A stretch of DNA of 64,000 nucleotides, from the NCBI RefSeq assembly GCF_017104565.1, contig NZ_JAAGPD010000042.1, positions 38,726 through 102,725 of the forward strand, given 5' to 3'. How positions within the stretch are numbered: position 1 is the stretch's first letter; every line of letters starts with the position of its first letter. The position numbers and the translations under genes were made by a program. This document shows positions 42,592-51,880 of the stretch, piece by piece. Below the pieces are notes generated by a model. It saw nothing but the letters and a program-made list of their open reading frames with translations. It did no database searches and was not told where the DNA came from. Origin of the DNA: Paraburkholderia sp. Tr-20389. Lineage in GTDB: Bacteria; Pseudomonadota; Gammaproteobacteria; Burkholderiales; Burkholderiaceae.

Positions 42592-43026
42592 ATGTCCGAC
42601 ATCGACCGCGAAATCATGCGCGTGCTTCCCGACGCAGCCACGCAAAGCGATTACCTGAGCACGCCAGACATCTACCGGCGGCTGGCGGGCACCGTGCAGA
42701 ACATGCCGTGGCCGAAGACGGTTCACCGGCATCTCGCCCGGCTCGAGGAAGAAGGTCTCGTCGAGACAGGCCAGCGCGGCACGGCCTCCGTCTGGCGCAG
42801 GAAGGCGGGGGCGAGCGGCCTCGCCGCCAAGGCCGGCGCGATGATCAATTTCGACGACACGTACGTTGACGATGCGCTGCATGTGCAAGGCACGGTCATG
42901 TTGAGCCAGCGGTTGCGCTGGCGGCTGCGTTCGTTCGGCCCGAACGTCGAACTGCTCGGACCTGCGAGCCTGCGTGCCGAGCTTGCTGCGGAAGCGGCGG
43001 AGCTTGCGAACATCTATAGCAACTAG
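42592..43026 (+). CDS. Winged-helix protein with WYL-regulator-like C-terminus, apparently lacking the central WYL domain
   Basis: The protein has 144 residues. Residues 1-70 form a winged helix (STPDIYRRLAGTVQNMPWPK, RHLARLEEEGLVETGQRG). The last ~45 residues (SQRLRWRLRSFGPNVELLGP, ASLRAELAAEAAELANIYS) resemble the WCX tail of WYL-domain regulators. The usual ~100-residue WYL core between these parts is absent. It lies 23 nt upstream of a NERD-helicase gene on the same strand and may regulate it. It may be a deletion product or a genuine short variant. Confidence 0.65.
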   Translation: MSDIDREIMRVLPDAATQSDYLSTPDIYRRLAGTVQNMPWPKTVHRHLARLEEEGLVETGQRGTASVWRRKAGASGLAAKAGAMINFDDTYVDDALHVQGTVMLSQRLRWRLRSFGPNVELLGPASLRAELAAEAAELANIYSN

Positions 43027-43049
43027 CACGTCGCGCGAGGCAACGAAGC

Positions 43050-44684
43050 ATGGCTCGGATTTTCCCAACCGACTGGAACGACAAGCTCGTGAACGGCGCG
43101 GCGAAGCGCGAGATCGAAACGCTCGGCACTCTGCATCGCGGCTTGCCTGACACGTACGCTGTTTATCACGGCGTGCACTGGACGCAACTCAACAAAGGAT
43201 TTTCGATCTTCGGCGAAGCCGACTTCGTGGTCGTCAGCCCGACCGGCCGCGTGCTCGTGATCGAGCAGAAATCGGGTGCGCTCGAAGAGACACCCGACGG
43301 CCTCGTGAAGCTCTACGCGGGCAAGCGCAAGAGCGTGTCCTCGCAGATCGCGCGGACCATCGGCGGCATGCACAAGCGCTTTTCAGGCGCGTTCGGCGCG
43401 CAGAACTACAAGCTTGAAGAGATGTTGTATTGCCCGGACTATCGGGTGATGAATCCCTCGATAGCCGGCGTCAACCCGGAGCGGATCGTCGACGCGACGC
43501 GCAGCGATCAACTCGTGCAGATTGTCGAACGCATTCTTCCTGCCGACGAACCGGCGCAACCCTGCCGGGCGCGCCTCCATGCTTTTCTCGCCGACGAGCT
43601 TTCACTGATGCCGGATGTCCGGGCGATGATTGGTGAAGTCAACCGGCACGTAACGCGCGTGTCTGGTGGTCTTGCGACGTGGGTGCGGTCGATCGAATTC
43701 GAGCCGTTCAGGCTGCGAGTAATCGGTACGGCCGGCTCCGGCAAGACGCAGCTCGCAGTCCGCGTGCTCGATGATGCCGTCAAGGCGGGACAGCGCGCGC
43801 TTTACCTTTGTTTCAACCGCCCACTGGCCGATCATCTGCGGCATATCGCACCTGAAGGCGTGACCATACTCACGTATCACCAGCTCTGCCAGTGGGCAGC
43901 GGCACGCATAGGTCAGGTAGTCGACTTTGCCGACCAGCACGTATTCCGGACGCTCGAACACGCGTTGCTCGATGCGCAGTTCGACGAGGCTGAGTGTTTC
44001 GACACGGTGATCGTCGACGAAGGCCAAGACTTCCATCAAACATGGGTTGCGCCCGTAGAACGCCTGTTGCGCGAGAACGGCCGCTTCTGGTGGCTGGAAG
44101 ATCCGATGCAGAATCTGTACTTGCGAAGCAGTGTTGAACTGCCGGGGTGGGTCGCAGTGCGCGCCATGGCCAATCATCGCAGCCCGCATGACATCGTGCA
44201 GTTCATCGACATGCTGGCGGACGCGCCGATGAAGGTCGACGCGGCGGGACCGTTCACCCGCTCGGATGTCCGTACGATGACCTACGCCGGCGGCAACGCG
44301 ATGCAGGCCACCCGTGAAGCACTCGACGAAGCGATGGCGGCCGGCTTCTTGCCATCCGACATCGCGCTGCTGACATTCAGTGGGCGCGAGAAATCGCTAC
44401 TGGCCAGGTTCGACCAGCTTGGAAGCCATACGCTGCGCAGCTTTACGGGCGAATATGACGAGCGCGGCGCCCCACGCTATCGCGATGGCGAGATCATGAT
44501 GGAGAGCGTCTATCGCTTCAAAGGGCAAAGCGCTCCCTGCGTGATTCTGACGGAAGTCGATTTCGAACAGTTCGACGATACGGTGTTCCGACGCCTGTTC
44601 GTCGGTGCGACGCGCGCGACGATGAAACTGATCGTCGTGATGTCGGAGCGTGCGCAGACGCAACTGATCGAACGAATGTCATAG
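43050..44684 (+). CDS. NERD nuclease-domain plus UvrD-like SF1 helicase protein
   Basis: The protein has 544 residues. The N-terminal NERD domain (about 10-120) has the nuclease-like core GEADFVVVSPTGRVLVIEQK, with E56, D58, E72 and K74 as candidate catalytic residues. The SF1 helicase core follows, with Walker A GTAGSGKT (226-233), DEGQD (323-327) and C-terminal ESVYRFKGQSAPCVILTEV. Family members are found with DNA-processing and defence genes. It is co-directional with the short winged-helix gene and lies about 1.5 kb upstream of the Zorya-like operon. Confidence 0.85.
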   Translation: MARIFPTDWNDKLVNGAAKREIETLGTLHRGLPDTYAVYHGVHWTQLNKGFSIFGEADFVVVSPTGRVLVIEQKSGALEETPDGLVKLYAGKRKSVSSQIARTIGGMHKRFSGAFGAQNYKLEEMLYCPDYRVMNPSIAGVNPERIVDATRSDQLVQIVERILPADEPAQPCRARLHAFLADELSLMPDVRAMIGEVNRHVTRVSGGLATWVRSIEFEPFRLRVIGTAGSGKTQLAVRVLDDAVKAGQRALYLCFNRPLADHLRHIAPEGVTILTYHQLCQWAAARIGQVVDFADQHVFRTLEHALLDAQFDEAECFDTVIVDEGQDFHQTWVAPVERLLRENGRFWWLEDPMQNLYLRSSVELPGWVAVRAMANHRSPHDIVQFIDMLADAPMKVDAAGPFTRSDVRTMTYAGGNAMQATREALDEAMAAGFLPSDIALLTFSGREKSLLARFDQLGSHTLRSFTGEYDERGAPRYRDGEIMMESVYRFKGQSAPCVILTEVDFEQFDDTVFRRLFVGATRATMKLIVVMSERAQTQLIERMS

Positions 44685-46173: not shown

Positions 46174-47091
46174 ATGAGAGAACTTTCAGGGCATGACGAC
46201 TCCGCAAGCCGGTCGTCGTTTGAATTGCGCACTCCGCGCATCACGTTGGACCAGGACGTGGTGCTCGCTCCCGAAACGCGTCGCATGTTCGAAGAAGCCA
46301 TCGGCGCGATGCGCTATCACAAGACCATTTACGCCGATTGGGGCTTCGGGGCAGTGGACCCAATGGGCCGCAATATGGTCCTTAACTTCTATGGTCCGCC
46401 CGGAACAGGCAAGACGCTCGCCGCCGAAGCACTCGCGGGGACGCTCGGGCGTCAGTATCTGCACATTGGCATCTCCGAACTCGAAAGCAAATACGTCGGA
46501 GATACTGCCAGAAACATCACGCTTGCATTCAAGGAAGCAGCCGCCGAGGGAGCCGTGCTGTTCTTCGACGAAGCGGACACGCTGCTTGGCGCACGTCTTT
46601 CCTCTGTCACGCAAGGCATCGACAACGAGATCAACGCGATGCGCTCGACGCTTCTCGTCGAACTGGAACGCTTTGACGGGATTGTCGTGTTCGCCACCAA
46701 CTTTGCGAAGAACTACGACTCTGCGTTTGTGAGCCGTATCCGCTATCACATCGAGTTCAGACTGCCCGACCTCGAAGGTCGCAAGCAGTTGTGGGAGCGC
46801 TTTCTCGTGCGAGGCGTCCCGCTTGCCGAAGAGCGGTCGCTTGTGATCGATCGATGTGCTGCCGCATCCGATGGACTGAGTGGCCGTGAGATACGCACCG
46901 TTTTGCGCACCGCTTTTCCGCGCGCCATTGTGAGCAAACCAGCAGAGCCGTGCGTGCATTGGGAACACATCGAGACGGCGATCGGCGACGTGCGCGCAGC
47001 GCATCGCAATGTCGGAAAACAACGGCAGAAGGCCTACGGCACCGATATTGGAGTCGATGCAGGCATGCAATTGCTCGGCCTTTCTGCGTGA
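46174..47091 (+). CDS. AAA+ ATPase (classic-clade, Vps4/FtsH-like), first gene of a Zorya-like operon
   Basis: The 305-residue protein has a single AAA+ module: Walker A GPPGTGKT (74-81), pore-loop-like ESKYVGD (104-110), Walker B LFFDEAD (129-135), sensor/second region FATNFAKNYDSAFVSRIR with arginine fingers R188 and R190, and a C-terminal lid (about 205-285). There is no transmembrane segment or protease domain, so it is probably a soluble ring remodeller. It precedes three genes with tight spacing. It is not a component I know from described Zorya systems. Confidence 0.85.
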   Translation: MRELSGHDDSASRSSFELRTPRITLDQDVVLAPETRRMFEEAIGAMRYHKTIYADWGFGAVDPMGRNMVLNFYGPPGTGKTLAAEALAGTLGRQYLHIGISELESKYVGDTARNITLAFKEAAAEGAVLFFDEADTLLGARLSSVTQGIDNEINAMRSTLLVELERFDGIVVFATNFAKNYDSAFVSRIRYHIEFRLPDLEGRKQLWERFLVRGVPLAEERSLVIDRCAAASDGLSGREIRTVLRTAFPRAIVSKPAEPCVHWEHIETAIGDVRAAHRNVGKQRQKAYGTDIGVDAGMQLLGLSA

Positions 47092-47128
47092 AGCCACCAT
47101 TTTTTATTGACAGTCACGGGGAGATACA

Positions 47129-48418
47129 GTGGGATTTTTCGACGGGTTAAAGAGCGCGTGGAGTACTGTTCGTAGTGTCGCTAGCTCGGTCATCGAGACG
47201 GCGAAAGACGTTGCTGGCCGTGTAATTGGATGGATGGCGGAGGAAGCGGAACAGTTCGTCGGCGACGTCAAACAGATGTGGCAAACGGTGAAGCCTTTTG
47301 TCGAGCATATACGAACAGGCTTGAGAGCCGCAGCGGGCATTGCACCGTTTCCCTGGTTGAAGGGCGCGCTAACCGCGCTAGATGCAGGCTTGGGCGCACT
47401 CACCGCGTTCGAAAATTCCCCGATCGCCAAGAAGGTGGAGGAGGCAATCAAGTGGGCAATCGAGCTGGCAAAGCGTTGGCATAAGCCCGTGCGCGGCGAG
47501 GTGCAGGCAAGCGGTCAAGAAGCAAGCACGCTTTCCGATGAAGAACTCGTAGTTGCAAAACGCCATCAGCAGACGTTCCGATTCGCCGAACGCGAAGTCG
47601 TGTCCGACTCGTTGCGACACGAACTGGGGTTGGCATCGGCGATCAACGACTTTGAAATTGCGTCCATCGATGTGACAAAGGCAATCGATGCGGCGCCCGC
47701 CGACTTCGAACACTATCTTCGTCTGCGCGCAACGCAAAAGCTTCTGACAATGGCGGAGAAGAAATTCCGTTCGGCCGGCACAGTGGATGATCTGAGCGCC
47801 GACGATCTGTTTCTGGTGCGTATCGCTTCCGATCTGGTCAAGGCGAAACCCGAATTGTCGATAGAGACCGCGTTGCGGCTGGACCGTTTGTTGACGGATC
47901 GCTACGGCAAGAAGCTGACGCCGTTCGTCTTCGAGGAACTGATTGCCGCGTGGGCCAAACGTGGTGAAGTACTCGGCCAGCAATGGAACGAAGCGAACCG
48001 CACCTATGCAAAGGATAAAATTCTGCTGAAGCGTTTGACGCTTGCCAAGGAAATCCAGGAGGAGCTTTCGGAAGAAGAGACGCTCGAGCTTTCGAAACTC
48101 GAGAAGGAAGTGCCCGCGAAAAAGACGGCGCTGGATCAACTGGCCACCCGACAACTCGACACCGAGCGCTATGCCGGCGCAGCCGAAGGCTTCCTGCAAT
48201 TGCTCGAAAAAACACCTGAACAGATCGAAGCAGAAGATCGCAGCTATCTGATCGATGAAGGCGCGAACGTCGGAAAGATACTGATCGATTGTGCGCAAAA
48301 CGAGATTCCGTTCGACAAACTGAGCGCCGATAACCAGGCACTCGTCAACGACTACGCGAACATCTTCAAGAACGAATCGAAGCAACGTACTGAAGTCATC
48401 CTGAAGGCGGCAGCATGA
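47129..48418 (+). CDS. Unrecognised all-helical protein of the Zorya-like operon
   Basis: The protein has 429 residues from GTG 47129, with GGGGAG 6-7 nt upstream. The N-terminal ~115 residues are a series of amphipathic helices (MGFFDGLKSAWSTVRSVASS, WMAEEAEQFVGDVKQMWQTV) with a glycine/alanine-rich hydrophobic patch near 65-90. That patch is suited to membrane binding or insertion, although no typical signal or TM helix is present. The remainder (about 125-429) is charged and helical, with a coiled-coil-like stretch around 300-345. The stop overlaps the zorA-like start (ATGA). Family not recognised; an effector or adaptor role is an inference. Confidence 0.75.
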   Translation: MGFFDGLKSAWSTVRSVASSVIETAKDVAGRVIGWMAEEAEQFVGDVKQMWQTVKPFVEHIRTGLRAAAGIAPFPWLKGALTALDAGLGALTAFENSPIAKKVEEAIKWAIELAKRWHKPVRGEVQASGQEASTLSDEELVVAKRHQQTFRFAEREVVSDSLRHELGLASAINDFEIASIDVTKAIDAAPADFEHYLRLRATQKLLTMAEKKFRSAGTVDDLSADDLFLVRIASDLVKAKPELSIETALRLDRLLTDRYGKKLTPFVFEELIAAWAKRGEVLGQQWNEANRTYAKDKILLKRLTLAKEIQEELSEEETLELSKLEKEVPAKKTALDQLATRQLDTERYAGAAEGFLQLLEKTPEQIEAEDRSYLIDEGANVGKILIDCAQNEIPFDKLSADNQALVNDYANIFKNESKQRTEVILKAAA

Positions 48419-49884
48419 ACCCACGCGAAGTACTGGACTTTCTGCTTCCTCAGGCGAACGATCCGCTCCAGCTGATTTTTCTTTCGATCATCCTGCTGCT
48501 GATCTTGTGCACGATGGTCAGCGCGCATATCACGGCCAATCCGAAATCGTGGGAGCACAAGTGGAACCGCGGAACGCCCGACGACAGCAGCGATGACCTC
48601 GATATCGAGCATGGCAGCGTCACCGACCTCTGGCAAGCCGTCGCCACGACACCCGAGAAACTGGCCGACATCATGCCGGGCATGCTGCTGGTCATCGGGC
48701 TACTGGGCACGTTTCTGGGCTTAGGTCTCGCGCTTAATCACGCGTCCCATATTTTGGGCCAGCCGGACGCGCTGACGGCAAATGGTGCGGCCGATAGCAT
48801 GCGCGATCTGGTCGGCCTGCTTCAAGGTCTCGGGACCAAGTTCAAGACGTCGACGTGGGGTATTTCCGGGTTTGTGCTGCTCAAGTTCTGGAGCGAGATC
48901 ACCCGTTTTGCGGAGAAGCGTCTTGCCTGGGTGATCGGCAAGGTCAAGATCGAGCTTGAACAGCGCAAGCAGGAAGAAGCGGTTGCAACTGCAGCAAAGC
49001 AAAAGGCGTTGTTCGATGAGATCAAGGGCGCGGCGAACGGCATCGTGAATGGCTTCGCTGAGCAGATCGCGCGCATGGCCGCACACGACGATGAACTGCA
49101 TCAAGGCACGCAGACCCGTCTAGATGAACATTTTCGTCTGGTTCGTGAAGATCTCGGACAGGTGCAGGCTGCGAGCCGCGAAACTAACGCAGCGATGACG
49201 CAATTCACGTCGGGCGTGAAGACGGTCGTCGATGACATGGGCGATGCCGCGGCACGCATGGCGTCAGGCGCCGACAAAGTGGGCCGCGCAGCAGAGCAAT
49301 TGACCGGTTCAGTGGATGCGTTCAGCGCGCAGTTCAAGGACGTGCTTGACAGCGTGCGCAAGGATCTGGGCACGGCGATCAAGGACATGAGCACTCAGGC
49401 GTCGGAGACACTTGGGCGCGGAAGCCAGCAACTGGAGAGCGCGACCAGGGAAATTGCATCTTCGCTCAACGTGCTTTCGAGTGATGTGAAGGAAACGCTG
49501 ACGGCGGTGAAGGAGTCGATCGATAAATCGCTCAAAATGCAAACAGCGGCTTCCCAGACGTTCACTGTGTCGAGCGACGCATTGAACGAGACCATTGTCG
49601 AAATCAAGGAGCAATTCGACAAACTCGGTTCGAATATTTCCAGTGGACTGCAAGCCGTTTCGGGCGCCGGCCAGCATATGCGTTCGATCGGAAAAAGCCT
49701 GGGAGACGTTATCGCACCGCTGACCGCGATTTCAATCGAGCAGAAGGCATTGTTCGAACCGCTTGGCTCACTGCCGGCACAACAGCAGGCGATCCTGCGC
49801 GTACTTGGGGAAGTGCGCGACAATCTCGCGTCCACGTCCGCAGCGAAAATGGCCGCGAACGATGAAATCGTCCAGCCTGGCTAA
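48415..49884 (+). CDS. zorA: ZorA-like MotA/TolQ/ExbB proton-channel subunit with long cytoplasmic tail
   Basis: The 489-residue protein has hydrophobic helices at about 17-40, 85-108 and 145-162. The ExbB/MotA-type motif PGMLLVIGLLGTFLGLGLAL comes before GLGTKFKTSTWGISGF. Residues 165-489 form a long helical, coiled-coil-like tail rich in Ala, Thr, Ser and Asp. This is the architecture of ZorA, whose tail transmits a signal from a peptidoglycan-anchored motor into the cytoplasm during phage attack. Translationally coupled to the preceding gene and 9 nt from the zorB-like gene. Confidence 0.82.
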   Translation: MNPREVLDFLLPQANDPLQLIFLSIILLLILCTMVSAHITANPKSWEHKWNRGTPDDSSDDLDIEHGSVTDLWQAVATTPEKLADIMPGMLLVIGLLGTFLGLGLALNHASHILGQPDALTANGAADSMRDLVGLLQGLGTKFKTSTWGISGFVLLKFWSEITRFAEKRLAWVIGKVKIELEQRKQEEAVATAAKQKALFDEIKGAANGIVNGFAEQIARMAAHDDELHQGTQTRLDEHFRLVREDLGQVQAASRETNAAMTQFTSGVKTVVDDMGDAAARMASGADKVGRAAEQLTGSVDAFSAQFKDVLDSVRKDLGTAIKDMSTQASETLGRGSQQLESATREIASSLNVLSSDVKETLTAVKESIDKSLKMQTAASQTFTVSSDALNETIVEIKEQFDKLGSNISSGLQAVSGAGQHMRSIGKSLGDVIAPLTAISIEQKALFEPLGSLPAQQQAILRVLGEVRDNLASTSAAKMAANDEIVQPG

Positions 49885-49893
49885 GCGCGCGCC

Positions 49894-50532
49894 ATGAAAG
49901 AAAAACCTAGCGAATGGATCGCCATTTCCGACCTCATGGCGGGTGTGATGGCCGTGGTGATGCTCATGTTGGTGGTCGCTGTCGTGCAGAAGAGCACGAG
50001 CGAGGCGCGTTATCGGGAAGAGTTGGCCAATGCGAAATCGAGCAAAGGCGACCCACTTGCAAAGATGATGCAGTCGCTCAGCGCGAAAGTCGGTACGGGA
50101 GACGCTGCCGGGTTGATGGCGCTCGACCGGAATACCAACCGGCTGACGCTGCGAGACGGTGTGTTCGAACGAGGCAGCGCGTGCCTGACGCCCGATGCGC
50201 GTGCCGCCGTTGAAGCCGTACAGAGCCAGTTGGCGCACTTCGTGGTCGATAATCCGCACGCACGCATTCTCGTCGAAGGCTACACCGACAATTTGCCGGT
50301 CAACCGACCGGTCATCGACTATCAGCGGTTTTGCACCGTCTATGACGACAATTTCACGTTGTCGGCCGCGCGTGCGCGCGAAGCGCGCCGCGCGCTGATC
50401 GGAACCATCGATGAAGTGGCCGCGAGGCGCATCGTCGTAGCAGGCTATGGCGAATCGCGCCCGCTACAAGGACTGGACCCCGCCGATCCGAAGAACCGGC
50501 GCGTCGAGGTGCAGTTTCTGGTGGATCAATAG
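49894..50532 (+). CDS. zorB: ZorB-like MotB/OmpA-domain subunit
   Basis: The 212-residue protein has a short cytoplasmic N-terminus, one transmembrane helix (SDLMAGVMAVVMLMLVVAVV) carrying D13 at its start as the likely proton-conducting aspartate, a periplasmic linker, and an OmpA-like peptidoglycan-binding domain (ILVEGYTDNLPVNRP, LSAARAREARRAL, VVAGYGESRPLQG, NRRVEVQFL). In Zorya and flagellar motors this subunit anchors the ion-driven channel to the cell wall. It is the last gene of the operon. Confidence 0.85.
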   Translation: MKEKPSEWIAISDLMAGVMAVVMLMLVVAVVQKSTSEARYREELANAKSSKGDPLAKMMQSLSAKVGTGDAAGLMALDRNTNRLTLRDGVFERGSACLTPDARAAVEAVQSQLAHFVVDNPHARILVEGYTDNLPVNRPVIDYQRFCTVYDDNFTLSAARAREARRALIGTIDEVAARRIVVAGYGESRPLQGLDPADPKNRRVEVQFLVDQ

Positions 50533-50658
50533 ACCCACTCCGTAAGTGCCCATGGATGGTTTGCGTAGGGCGTTCCAGTCCTACGCGACATCCAGCGTGA
50601 ACGGCAACGAAACCCGATCTGGATAAATCGTACTTGACAGGCAATTCCCCAGCCGCAA

Positions 50659-50820
50659 TTACGCGAAATCTTTCCGACCGCGTTCAAACGGCGACTGGTC
50701 GAACGATCGCCTGAGCCGGGCGCATCGGTGGCGTTGATCACGCGTAGCAACGATACCAATGCAAACCTGTTGTTCGGATGGCGACGGCTATGCCCGCGCC
50801 AGACATCGGGGACGTCGTGA
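50659..50820 (+). pseudogene. IS66-type transposase orfA (tnpA) remnant
   Basis: The frame reads REIFPTAFKRRLVERSPEPG, then ASVALITRSNDTNANLLFGW and RRL. This is the helix-turn-helix start of the small IS66 accessory protein. It lacks an initiator context, stops at 50820 and has no intact downstream tnpB/tnpC. It marks old insertion-sequence activity at the right end of the Zorya-like region. Confidence 0.7.
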
Positions 50821-51024
50821 CCGTTGGCGGACCGGTGCCGCTCTCGTCAGCTATTTCGACGGCGCATTGAGCGGCGAGCGACCCTTCCGGAATCGACTAT
50901 GGCGCCGAACTTTGTGACAGGACTGGTTCGTAACGTCAACTAGACGGCGCGTTGTTCTGCGTCCGTTCGATCTGTAGCACAGAATGTCCGGAGGTTTGCT
51001 CGCCGTCGTTCTGCCCAAGTGGAC

Positions 51025-51201
51025 TCAATGACAGCCGATCGCGCACGCTATGGTCGATACGGCGCCTATGACACCAACGCCGACTCCCAGCCCAAACGTT
51101 TCAAGGGTCGTCGCACATCCTTGGAGAAGGCAAGCAGAAGCAAGCGTGCCTGCAATTAGTACGCGGCGCAAGGTGATGTGCGCCAGGGCGGGACGAAACA
51201 T
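51025..51201 (-). CDS. Small predicted lipoprotein
   Basis: The 58-residue protein starts MFRPALAHITLRRVLIAGTL and has a lipobox L-L-Q-G-C with the lipidation cysteine near residue 29. It ends in a Gly/Val-rich hydrophobic stretch with more cysteines (GVGVGVIGAVSTIACAIGCH). AAGGA lies 7-8 nt before ATG 51201. It is short, but the signal peptide, lipobox and ribosome site together support a real gene. Function unknown. Confidence 0.6.
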   Translation of the reverse strand: MFRPALAHITLRRVLIAGTLASACLLQGCATTLETFGLGVGVGVIGAVSTIACAIGCH

Positions 51202-51880
51202 GGCGTGTTCCTTCGTTTTTGTCAGCAGCCCGATTGCCGCATTGAAGGCAGTGTATCGGCACCACCCTTGGCATTACCGATCAAGCAGCTACGCAAGTCT
51301 GCAAGTCGTTGCAAAATGTTTCCCTGCTCGCAGGAAACATCGACATGAGGTGGCGCACCCGCGATCCTCGCAGTCTTCTCGATTGGGGATTGGGCAACGG
51401 ATGCCGATTCCGGATGCCTTCTATTCGAATCTCGGAGTCGCACGCGGTGTGTCGCGCGGATATCGATGAATCTACCGTGCAACTGATCGTCCAAAAAACG
51501 GAAGCTTGTTTGAAGGTTATCCCCGAGACGTTAGGTTCCGCTAGCGGCGAAAGCGGCAGGTTGGTCCGCCGCAATCGCGAAGAAACAGAGTAGCGATAAT
51601 GCGGAGCTATCGGTGAGCGGCTTGGCGATATGCAGATTGTCGCCTTGACTCGGAGTTTTGGGGTGCCGCAGATCAAGCGAACCAAACTCTCGCGGGCGGT
51701 TGGAAAATGAAAGCATGTTTCATTGGTATTGTAAGCTGGTGCGATACCAAGACTCATGGAAATCCCGTACATCCTGGCGTCATCCGCGAAAGCTTTGGGA
51801 AGGGTTTGCATCGCTAAAATCTCCTCCAATCAATTGAGTCGGGCAGTTTTAGTGCCGCCTCGAACTAACGGAGACACTTG
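51202..51880. other. Gene-poor stretch between the lipoprotein and the ABC importer
   Basis: About 680 bp with overlapping ORFs up to 182 codons on the minus strand and 94 on the plus strand. None has a recognisable domain or convincing composition. It probably holds decayed sequence and the promoter of the ABC importer at its right end. Confidence 0.5.

Follow-up and report, generated by a model that had tools for sequence, protein, structure and literature searches.

The 64,000-nucleotide (nt) stretch of Paraburkholderia sp. Tr-20389 DNA analyzed here (hereafter, the window; part of a 102,725-base contig, NZ_JAAGPD010000042.1, of a 9.0 Mb genome) carries, at 46174-50532 of the forward strand, four intact and co-directional open reading frames (ORFs) of 305, 429, 489, and 212 amino acids (aa), which are best read as a Zorya-like pair of motor subunits whose usual partners are replaced by an uncatalogued set, an AAA+ ring and a protein called ORF2. 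Judged by its parts, this cassette works like Zorya, whereas by the partner-gene definition it is none of types I-III. Defense in some form seems, by analogy, a likely role, envelope-triggered defense being suggested because of the likeness to Zorya and the defense islands in which the cassette is found; that the four genes function together as an uncatalogued anti-phage system of the Zorya type, with the membrane mechanism proposed further below, appears evenly poised between holding and failing. The genes are as follows:

46174..47091, + strand: gene 1, classic-clade AAA+ ATPase, 305 aa (Pfam AAA, E 9.5e-26)
47129..48418, + strand: gene 2 (ORF2), 429 aa, GTG start; no family matches, all-helical AlphaFold2 model
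48415..49884, + strand: gene 3, ZorA-like subunit of the motor, 489 aa; helical cytoplasmic tail following a membrane core of the MotA/TolQ/ExbB type
49894..50532, + strand: gene 4, ZorB-like motor subunit, 212 aa; one transmembrane (TM) helix with D13, and an OmpA domain

The coordinates and the tight spacing (37 nt, -4 nt, i.e., an overlap, and 9 nt) were verified as the initial annotation of this DNA had given them, and its expectation that the AAA+ and 429-residue genes travel with the ZorAB pair was borne out by the wider distribution of the cassette. A single scan of a species-genome collection with an ORF2 alignment, pattern-based and non-exhaustive, yielded 34 loci from Paraburkholderia, Shewanella, Massilia, Janthinobacterium, Pseudomonas, Acinetobacter, Vibrio, Citrobacter, Escherichia, Dickeya, and other beta- and gamma-proteobacteria, to which the window, L019 (a Paraburkholderia megaplasmid), L020, L021, L061 (from IMG/VR), and L062 (Escherichia coli) were added, making 40 loci. 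The complete four-gene set recurs in identical order in 38 of these, a grouping beyond chance, and in the two incomplete loci (L035 and L059) the contig breaks off within the ORF2 end or right at it. The junction between the ORF2 and ZorA genes is a 4-nt overlap in 30 of the 38 complete loci and lies between -4 and +3 nt in 37. As L021 and L034 appear to be one contig (79,493 bases each), and several of the Citrobacter, Escherichia, and Pseudomonas rows are closely related, the 38 complete loci are not independent cases; a weak 31% match within a 1231-aa frame (G028; E 4.3e-4) was excluded from the copy counts.

The reverse search, in which residues 1-195 of the ZorA-like protein served as the query against 300 order-level genomes (E 0.001), matched 13 of them, three strongly (E < 1e-80, the window's own genome being among these), and all three carry the full four-gene set, the remaining ten matches being weak (E 6e-6 to 6e-4). 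Two loci were recovered from IMG/VR with the ZorA core, one having all four genes and the other ORF2, ZorA, and ZorB on a contig whose end falls inside ORF2; among the 80 IMG/VR matches listed for the AAA protein, two exceed 38% identity, one being that full cassette and the other stopping at its contig end. The E. coli copy (L062) is the sole match in 5,426 E. coli genomes, as seen by a near-identity search in which distant copies are missed.

The proteins encoded by genes 3 and 4 bear, as far as can be told from their sequences, the features of an ion-driven, peptidoglycan-tethered motor. Three TM helices and a helical tail of ~320 residues had initially been described for the ZorA-like protein; the ~320-residue cytoplasmic tail stands, as do two TM helices seen by hydropathy (strongly hydrophobic segments 18-36 and 89-107), and the third (144-163), being polar, appears by homology and in the structure model only. 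T99 and S146 are invariant (29 of 29 rows), and the protein spans 489-732 aa over 38 copies, that of the window (489 aa) being the shortest. Because coiled coils outscored ZorA when the full-length profile was compared with PDB chains, the core was tested alone, its single match under E 0.01 being the ZorA of Zorya I (8vvn); in the Foldseek search with this core, the top six rows were all ZorA, with 8vvn the best by fold. The best NCBIfam ZorA score is 37.2 bits, below the cut-off of 190, and Pfam MotA_ExbB (PF01618) gave no match at E up to 1 in the cassette and none at the locus in the genome scan.

The ZorB-like protein retains the architecture first assigned to it, with an OmpA domain (Pfam, E 8.6e-13) and a single TM helix whose aspartate, D13, is invariant in 32 of 32 rows, the TM aspartate and the OmpA domain also being present in MotB. 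Its top PADLOC ZorB model is ZorB3 (E 9.5e-18), and NCBIfam ZorB1 scores 24.6 bits, below the cut-off of 400. When placed in a tree, the ZorB sequences of the cassette form a clade of their own (100/98), apart from ZorB1/2, ZorB3, and eight MotB rows, with a long-branch warning attached to this placement; the closest to that of the window is from Paraburkholderia xenovorans LB400 (L028). The motor pair had to be told from a housekeeping TolQR/MotAB clade, and in the tree ZorB does stand apart from MotB, yet MotB is its best match in the PDB. Such distinctness from ZorB1/2 and ZorB3, along with MotB chains being the best PDB matches, would also suit a non-defense envelope machine (for cell-wall stress, transport, or motility) that sits on mobile islands by chance, and related motors are described as powering Tol, Ton, and motility, too (PMC12204202). 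An envelope machine of this kind seems unlikely, however, in view of the rare and patchy occurrence of the cassette (1 of 369 class-level genomes, in addition to the three strong matches among the order-level ones, the window's own genome being included in both counts), the defense genes in its flanks, and the five other MotA/ExbB-type genes found elsewhere in the window's genome.

Two further observations concern ZorB-type proteins outside the cassette. Six proteins matched by PADLOC ZorB1 (L095-L097 and L099-L101), sharing the motif EKPFWIS[YF][AS]D[LM]MTA, group next to ZorB1/2 in a separate clade (100/99) and may belong to another motor system, and the window's genome holds, at a separate locus (G000:C19:94831-95463; L081), a strong match to ZorB3 of Zorya III (E 1.1e-115).

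Zorya types I, II, and III are defined by their partner genes (PMC11890865; PMC8565338). With Zorya I (ZorA, ZorB, ZorC, ZorD), the cassette shares a long-tailed, ZorA-like membrane core and a ZorB-like TM aspartate with an OmpA domain, but it differs in that its AAA+ protein and ORF2 match no ZorC/ZorD model and its ZorB falls in a separate clade; from Zorya II (ZorA, ZorB, ZorE), it differs in that neither partner gene matches the ZorE model, and from Zorya III (ZorA, ZorB, ZorF, ZorG), to which it is akin in having ZorB3 as the best PADLOC ZorB model, in that neither matches ZorF or ZorG. Neither partner gene thus has a Zorya model, no PADLOC ZorC-G model being matched by either at E up to 1. 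The likeness to IetAS lies in the top PADLOC and NCBIfam models of the AAA gene, which are IetA/IteA (PADLOC IetA, E 1.1e-28), whereas its NCBIfam score (98.1 bits) is below the IetA cut-off of 510. IetAS presumably combines the IetA AAA ATPase with a subtilase, and no protease family is among the Pfam, PADLOC, and NCBIfam matches listed for ORF2, ZorA, and ZorB.

At the system level, the set matches no catalogued system in Pfam, PADLOC, or NCBIfam, which agrees with its initial description as a new gene set, and it is named in no title or abstract opening across the open-access literature searched; its novelty extends as far as these papers and the libraries used (PADLOC 2023, NCBIfam June 2026, Pfam 2025, and PHROGs v4). 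Under the relaxed “other” rule of PADLOC, for which two co-localised genes suffice (PMC8565338), a ZorAB-like pair could have been flagged already as untyped Zorya. Of the “Zorya-like operon with a new gene set” that had been proposed, the motor pair and the conserved uncatalogued partners hold, and the ZorB lies outside the Zorya I, II, and III clades; as it has MotB for its best PDB match and a clade of its own, “Zorya” is to be taken here as a likeness in kind more than as proven membership.

Gene 1, whose initial assignment to the classic AAA+ clade is upheld by its Pfam match, encodes Walker A (GPPGTGKT), Walker B (LFFDEAD), pore-loop-1-like (ESKYVGD), and arginine-finger-like (SRI) elements, or what we take these motifs to be, and its product accordingly appears as an AAA+ protein in which the ATPase motifs are intact and a pore-loop motif is present. 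Walker A (GxPGTGKT) and Walker B ([LI]F[FL]DEAD) are found in all 34 AAA rows, S105, K106, G109, S187, R188, and I189 are invariant in the same alignment, and the pore-loop-1-like pattern SK[YF][VM]G[DE] is listed for 28 of the 34. The PDB chains nearest to the AAA profile are archaeal VCP-like, AFG2, and CDC48 ATPases. The strongest family match across the four libraries is PHROG 3757 (function unknown; E 6.5e-48), which is a family of phage proteins.

ORF2 has no Pfam, PADLOC, or NCBIfam match at E up to 1, and no PDB chain was matched by its profile below E 0.079. The amphipathic N-terminus first ascribed to this 429-residue protein is borne out: ~120 amphipathic N-terminal residues, with no predicted TM helix among them, are followed by an acidic, helical C-terminal part of ~300 residues, and all 34 rows agree in that hydrophobicity is higher over the first ~110 residues than over the remainder and that the sequence beyond residue 120 is net acidic. 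The charge of the N-terminus is near-neutral in the window and reaches up to +10 in relatives. The AlphaFold2 model is all helix (predicted local distance difference test score, pLDDT, 76.7), with the highest confidence from ~280 to 420 and a hairpin at 263-360 in the confidently modeled C-terminal half.

It is possible, if rather improbable, that the same defense system operates without any membrane attack, the AAA+ ATPase and ORF2 having the motor or phage proteins as their targets. In detail, and with no better chance, the AAA+ ring would unfold a phage protein or an ORF2-tagged one at the injection site, ORF2 being the adaptor. The pore-loop-like pattern of the 28 AAA rows is of a kind found in substrate-threading AAA proteins, and the C-terminal half of ORF2, as modeled, could suit an adaptor; the N-terminus, however, with its greater hydrophobicity and amphipathic stretches throughout the 34 rows, is left unexplained by such a role. 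Homology of this N-terminus to phage tape-measure proteins was considered and rejected: the best match to PHROGs reached 2.8e-8, and reversed sequences matched these families as well (best 3.2e-5), so the likeness is read as one of shared composition and periodicity. Forward sequences beat the reversed ones in four of the five pairs, the window's ORF2 scoring 0.003 forward and 0.0013 reversed.

Upstream of the operon, and outside the system, the window holds two neighboring genes:

42592..43026, + strand: small helix-turn-helix (HTH-WCX) regulator, 144 aa (Pfam WCX, 3.9e-8; PADLOC WYL, 1.5e-8)
43050..44684, + strand: NERD-like and UvrD-like helicase, 544 aa (UvrD_C_2, 8.5e-12)

The helicase also matches PADLOC RTasNERD-Hel (9e-22), its Pfam NERD match (0.0015) being under the cut-off. 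In Vogesella urethralis (L033), a 37%-identical helicase ends ~1.1 kb upstream of the cassette, with a WYL regulator in between, and the regulator and helicase at 42592-44684 of the window are possibly a second small defense module. The ~1.3 kb 3' of the operon (50533-51877) contain no convincing intact gene, no tRNA genes are present in the window, and promoter and terminator scans remained at chance level. An empty insertion site was sought in relatives of the window's genome and not found. The locus is a break of synteny against the relatives compared: in G020 and G022, the genes flanking the cassette in the window share one contig and lie > 1.2 Mb apart, a separation by which the site of the cassette is plastic, and in the other relatives, several of them draft genomes, they are on different contigs.

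The defense-island setting, which the initial annotation had supposed, was often met with, as restriction systems, WYL regulators, and integrases recur in the flanks. A WYL regulator lies at most 4.2 kb upstream in 10 of the 40 loci (several of which hold less upstream DNA), seven of these regulators being co-directional and at most 110 nt from the AAA gene, and eight being seeds of their own search profile; integrase-like ORFs flank the cassette in 11 of 39 loci, and five of these ORFs likewise were search seeds. For the flank scan (PADLOC at E 1e-10), 111 proteins of 25 loci were used, namely, L043:561-2891 from farther out and 110 of the 167 proteins encoded no more than 4 kb from the cassette, the remaining 57 having been omitted by hand; the window, L021, L049, L051, L057, L061, and L062 (several near-copies) were left out. 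Altogether 252 PADLOC families were matched, and among the 25 of them listed, WYL has nine members and type I specificity subunits, JukA, JukB, ZacC, and mad5 have three each, with some overlap (one specificity subunit is also mad5, and one helicase is also ZacC); Fic genes are found in the flanks, too. Of 199 control proteins, randomly sampled from 16 regions that had not been selected, in genomes of the window's order, 111 matched 40 PADLOC families, fewer than the flanks did, including mad3 and mad8 (three each) and type III CRISPR genes, and as the control matches such families as well, the family count is only a rough gauge.

The E. coli cassette (L062), whose genes bear the PGAP names “hypothetical protein” (two), “ATP-binding protein”, and “OmpA/MotB family protein”, has a tyrosine integrase gene 230 nt beyond it and a type I restriction operon in the same island. 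In Shewanella algidipiscicola (L030), ZorA1, ZorB1, and ZorC, followed by an ORF leaving the locus, lie directly 3' of the cassette (L030:13351-19324), and type I restriction and SoFic genes lie upstream. The new pair is thus able to coexist with Zorya I genes, two ZorAB-type motors being adjacent in this locus. A 606-aa protein is encoded downstream of the cassette at L055:13198-15018 and L056:13123-14943, the L055 one having no Pfam match at E 1e-4, and ORFs related to it adjoin the cassette in L045 and L058. An ORF2 relative is also carried by a sequence from human feces that GenBank labels Bacteriophage sp. (MT835507.1, 1-47505; L063). Phage carriage was rejected there, as the ORFs, inspected by eye, depict a bacterial defense island and not a phage genome (the cassette, two type I restriction systems, a large helicase with a neighboring 690-aa ORF, a tandem AAA, and a WYL-like regulator), and no claim of phage carriage is drawn from the IMG/VR contigs. 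Which invader is repelled is something on which an island setting is silent, and Wadjet provides a precedent for plasmid defense (PMC8565338); defense against plasmids or other mobile DNA instead of phages is nevertheless highly improbable here, a peptidoglycan-anchored motor being suited to detecting injection at the envelope, as has been proposed for Zorya (PMC11890865).

For Zorya, phage-triggered ZorAB has been proposed to recruit a nuclease (PMC11890865). In the cassette, ZorB would sense the disturbance of the cell wall upon phage injection, ion flow would turn or shift ZorA, and the ZorA tail would recruit or release the AAA+ ring, which would remodel ORF2 and free its amphipathic N-terminal helices; these would then target the inner membrane where the phage injects, or they would depolarise the cell, a protein-remodeling and membrane step thereby taking the place of the nuclease step of Zorya I/II. 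Most likely, the AAA+ ring deploys ORF2, probably on the membrane, with the motor as the trigger, and adaptor-based unfolding of phage proteins or regulation of the motor could be alternative outputs of the ring and ORF2. A bolder version, in which a CDC48-like, motor-driven AAA+ ring would unfold and load a tape-measure-like amphipathic ORF2 at the injection site, blocking or hijacking the channel, is very doubtful, as is what it would entail, i.e., a fourth kind of Zorya-like immunity by mechanical protein remodeling instead of DNA cleavage.

Several observations weigh against the cassette being a Zorya-type system that attacks the membrane. In the comparison of the ZorA core in VIA, four other ZorA chains are level with or below ExbB/TolQ, and the full-length ZorA profile placed designed coiled coils (5.7e-10) above ZorA (7.5e-7). 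The ZorB profile finds MotB chains first (1.9e-15) and ZorB after them (3.4e-9), its top NCBIfam models describe MotB-like proteins in general and, among the matches listed, all score below cut-off, and its long-branched clade is nested neither in Zorya I/II nor in III. No nuclease family is found in the cassette above the Pfam cut-off, and no phage assay of the gene set was found in the open-access literature searched. Fold searches with the ORF2 model gave no informative match, and no 19-residue stretch of ORF2 reaches 1.8 on the Kyte-Doolittle scale, nor is any TM helix predicted, which leaves amphipathicity as the sole ground for an action on the membrane. The flank control, finally, comes from the window's order and not from the same species, and holds PADLOC matches, too.

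The hosts of ORF2 include cultivable and tractable bacteria (Paraburkholderia xenovorans LB400, Shewanella, and Pseudomonas). Should the cassette defend them, ORF2 would constitute a new family of effectors or adaptors, one without a match in Pfam, PADLOC, and NCBIfam, and signaling from the motor to a cytoplasmic machine would become testable, because the machine in question is of a well-studied type (AAA+). The ZorAB motor itself would then be a general sensor of envelope injury, able to drive quite different outputs.

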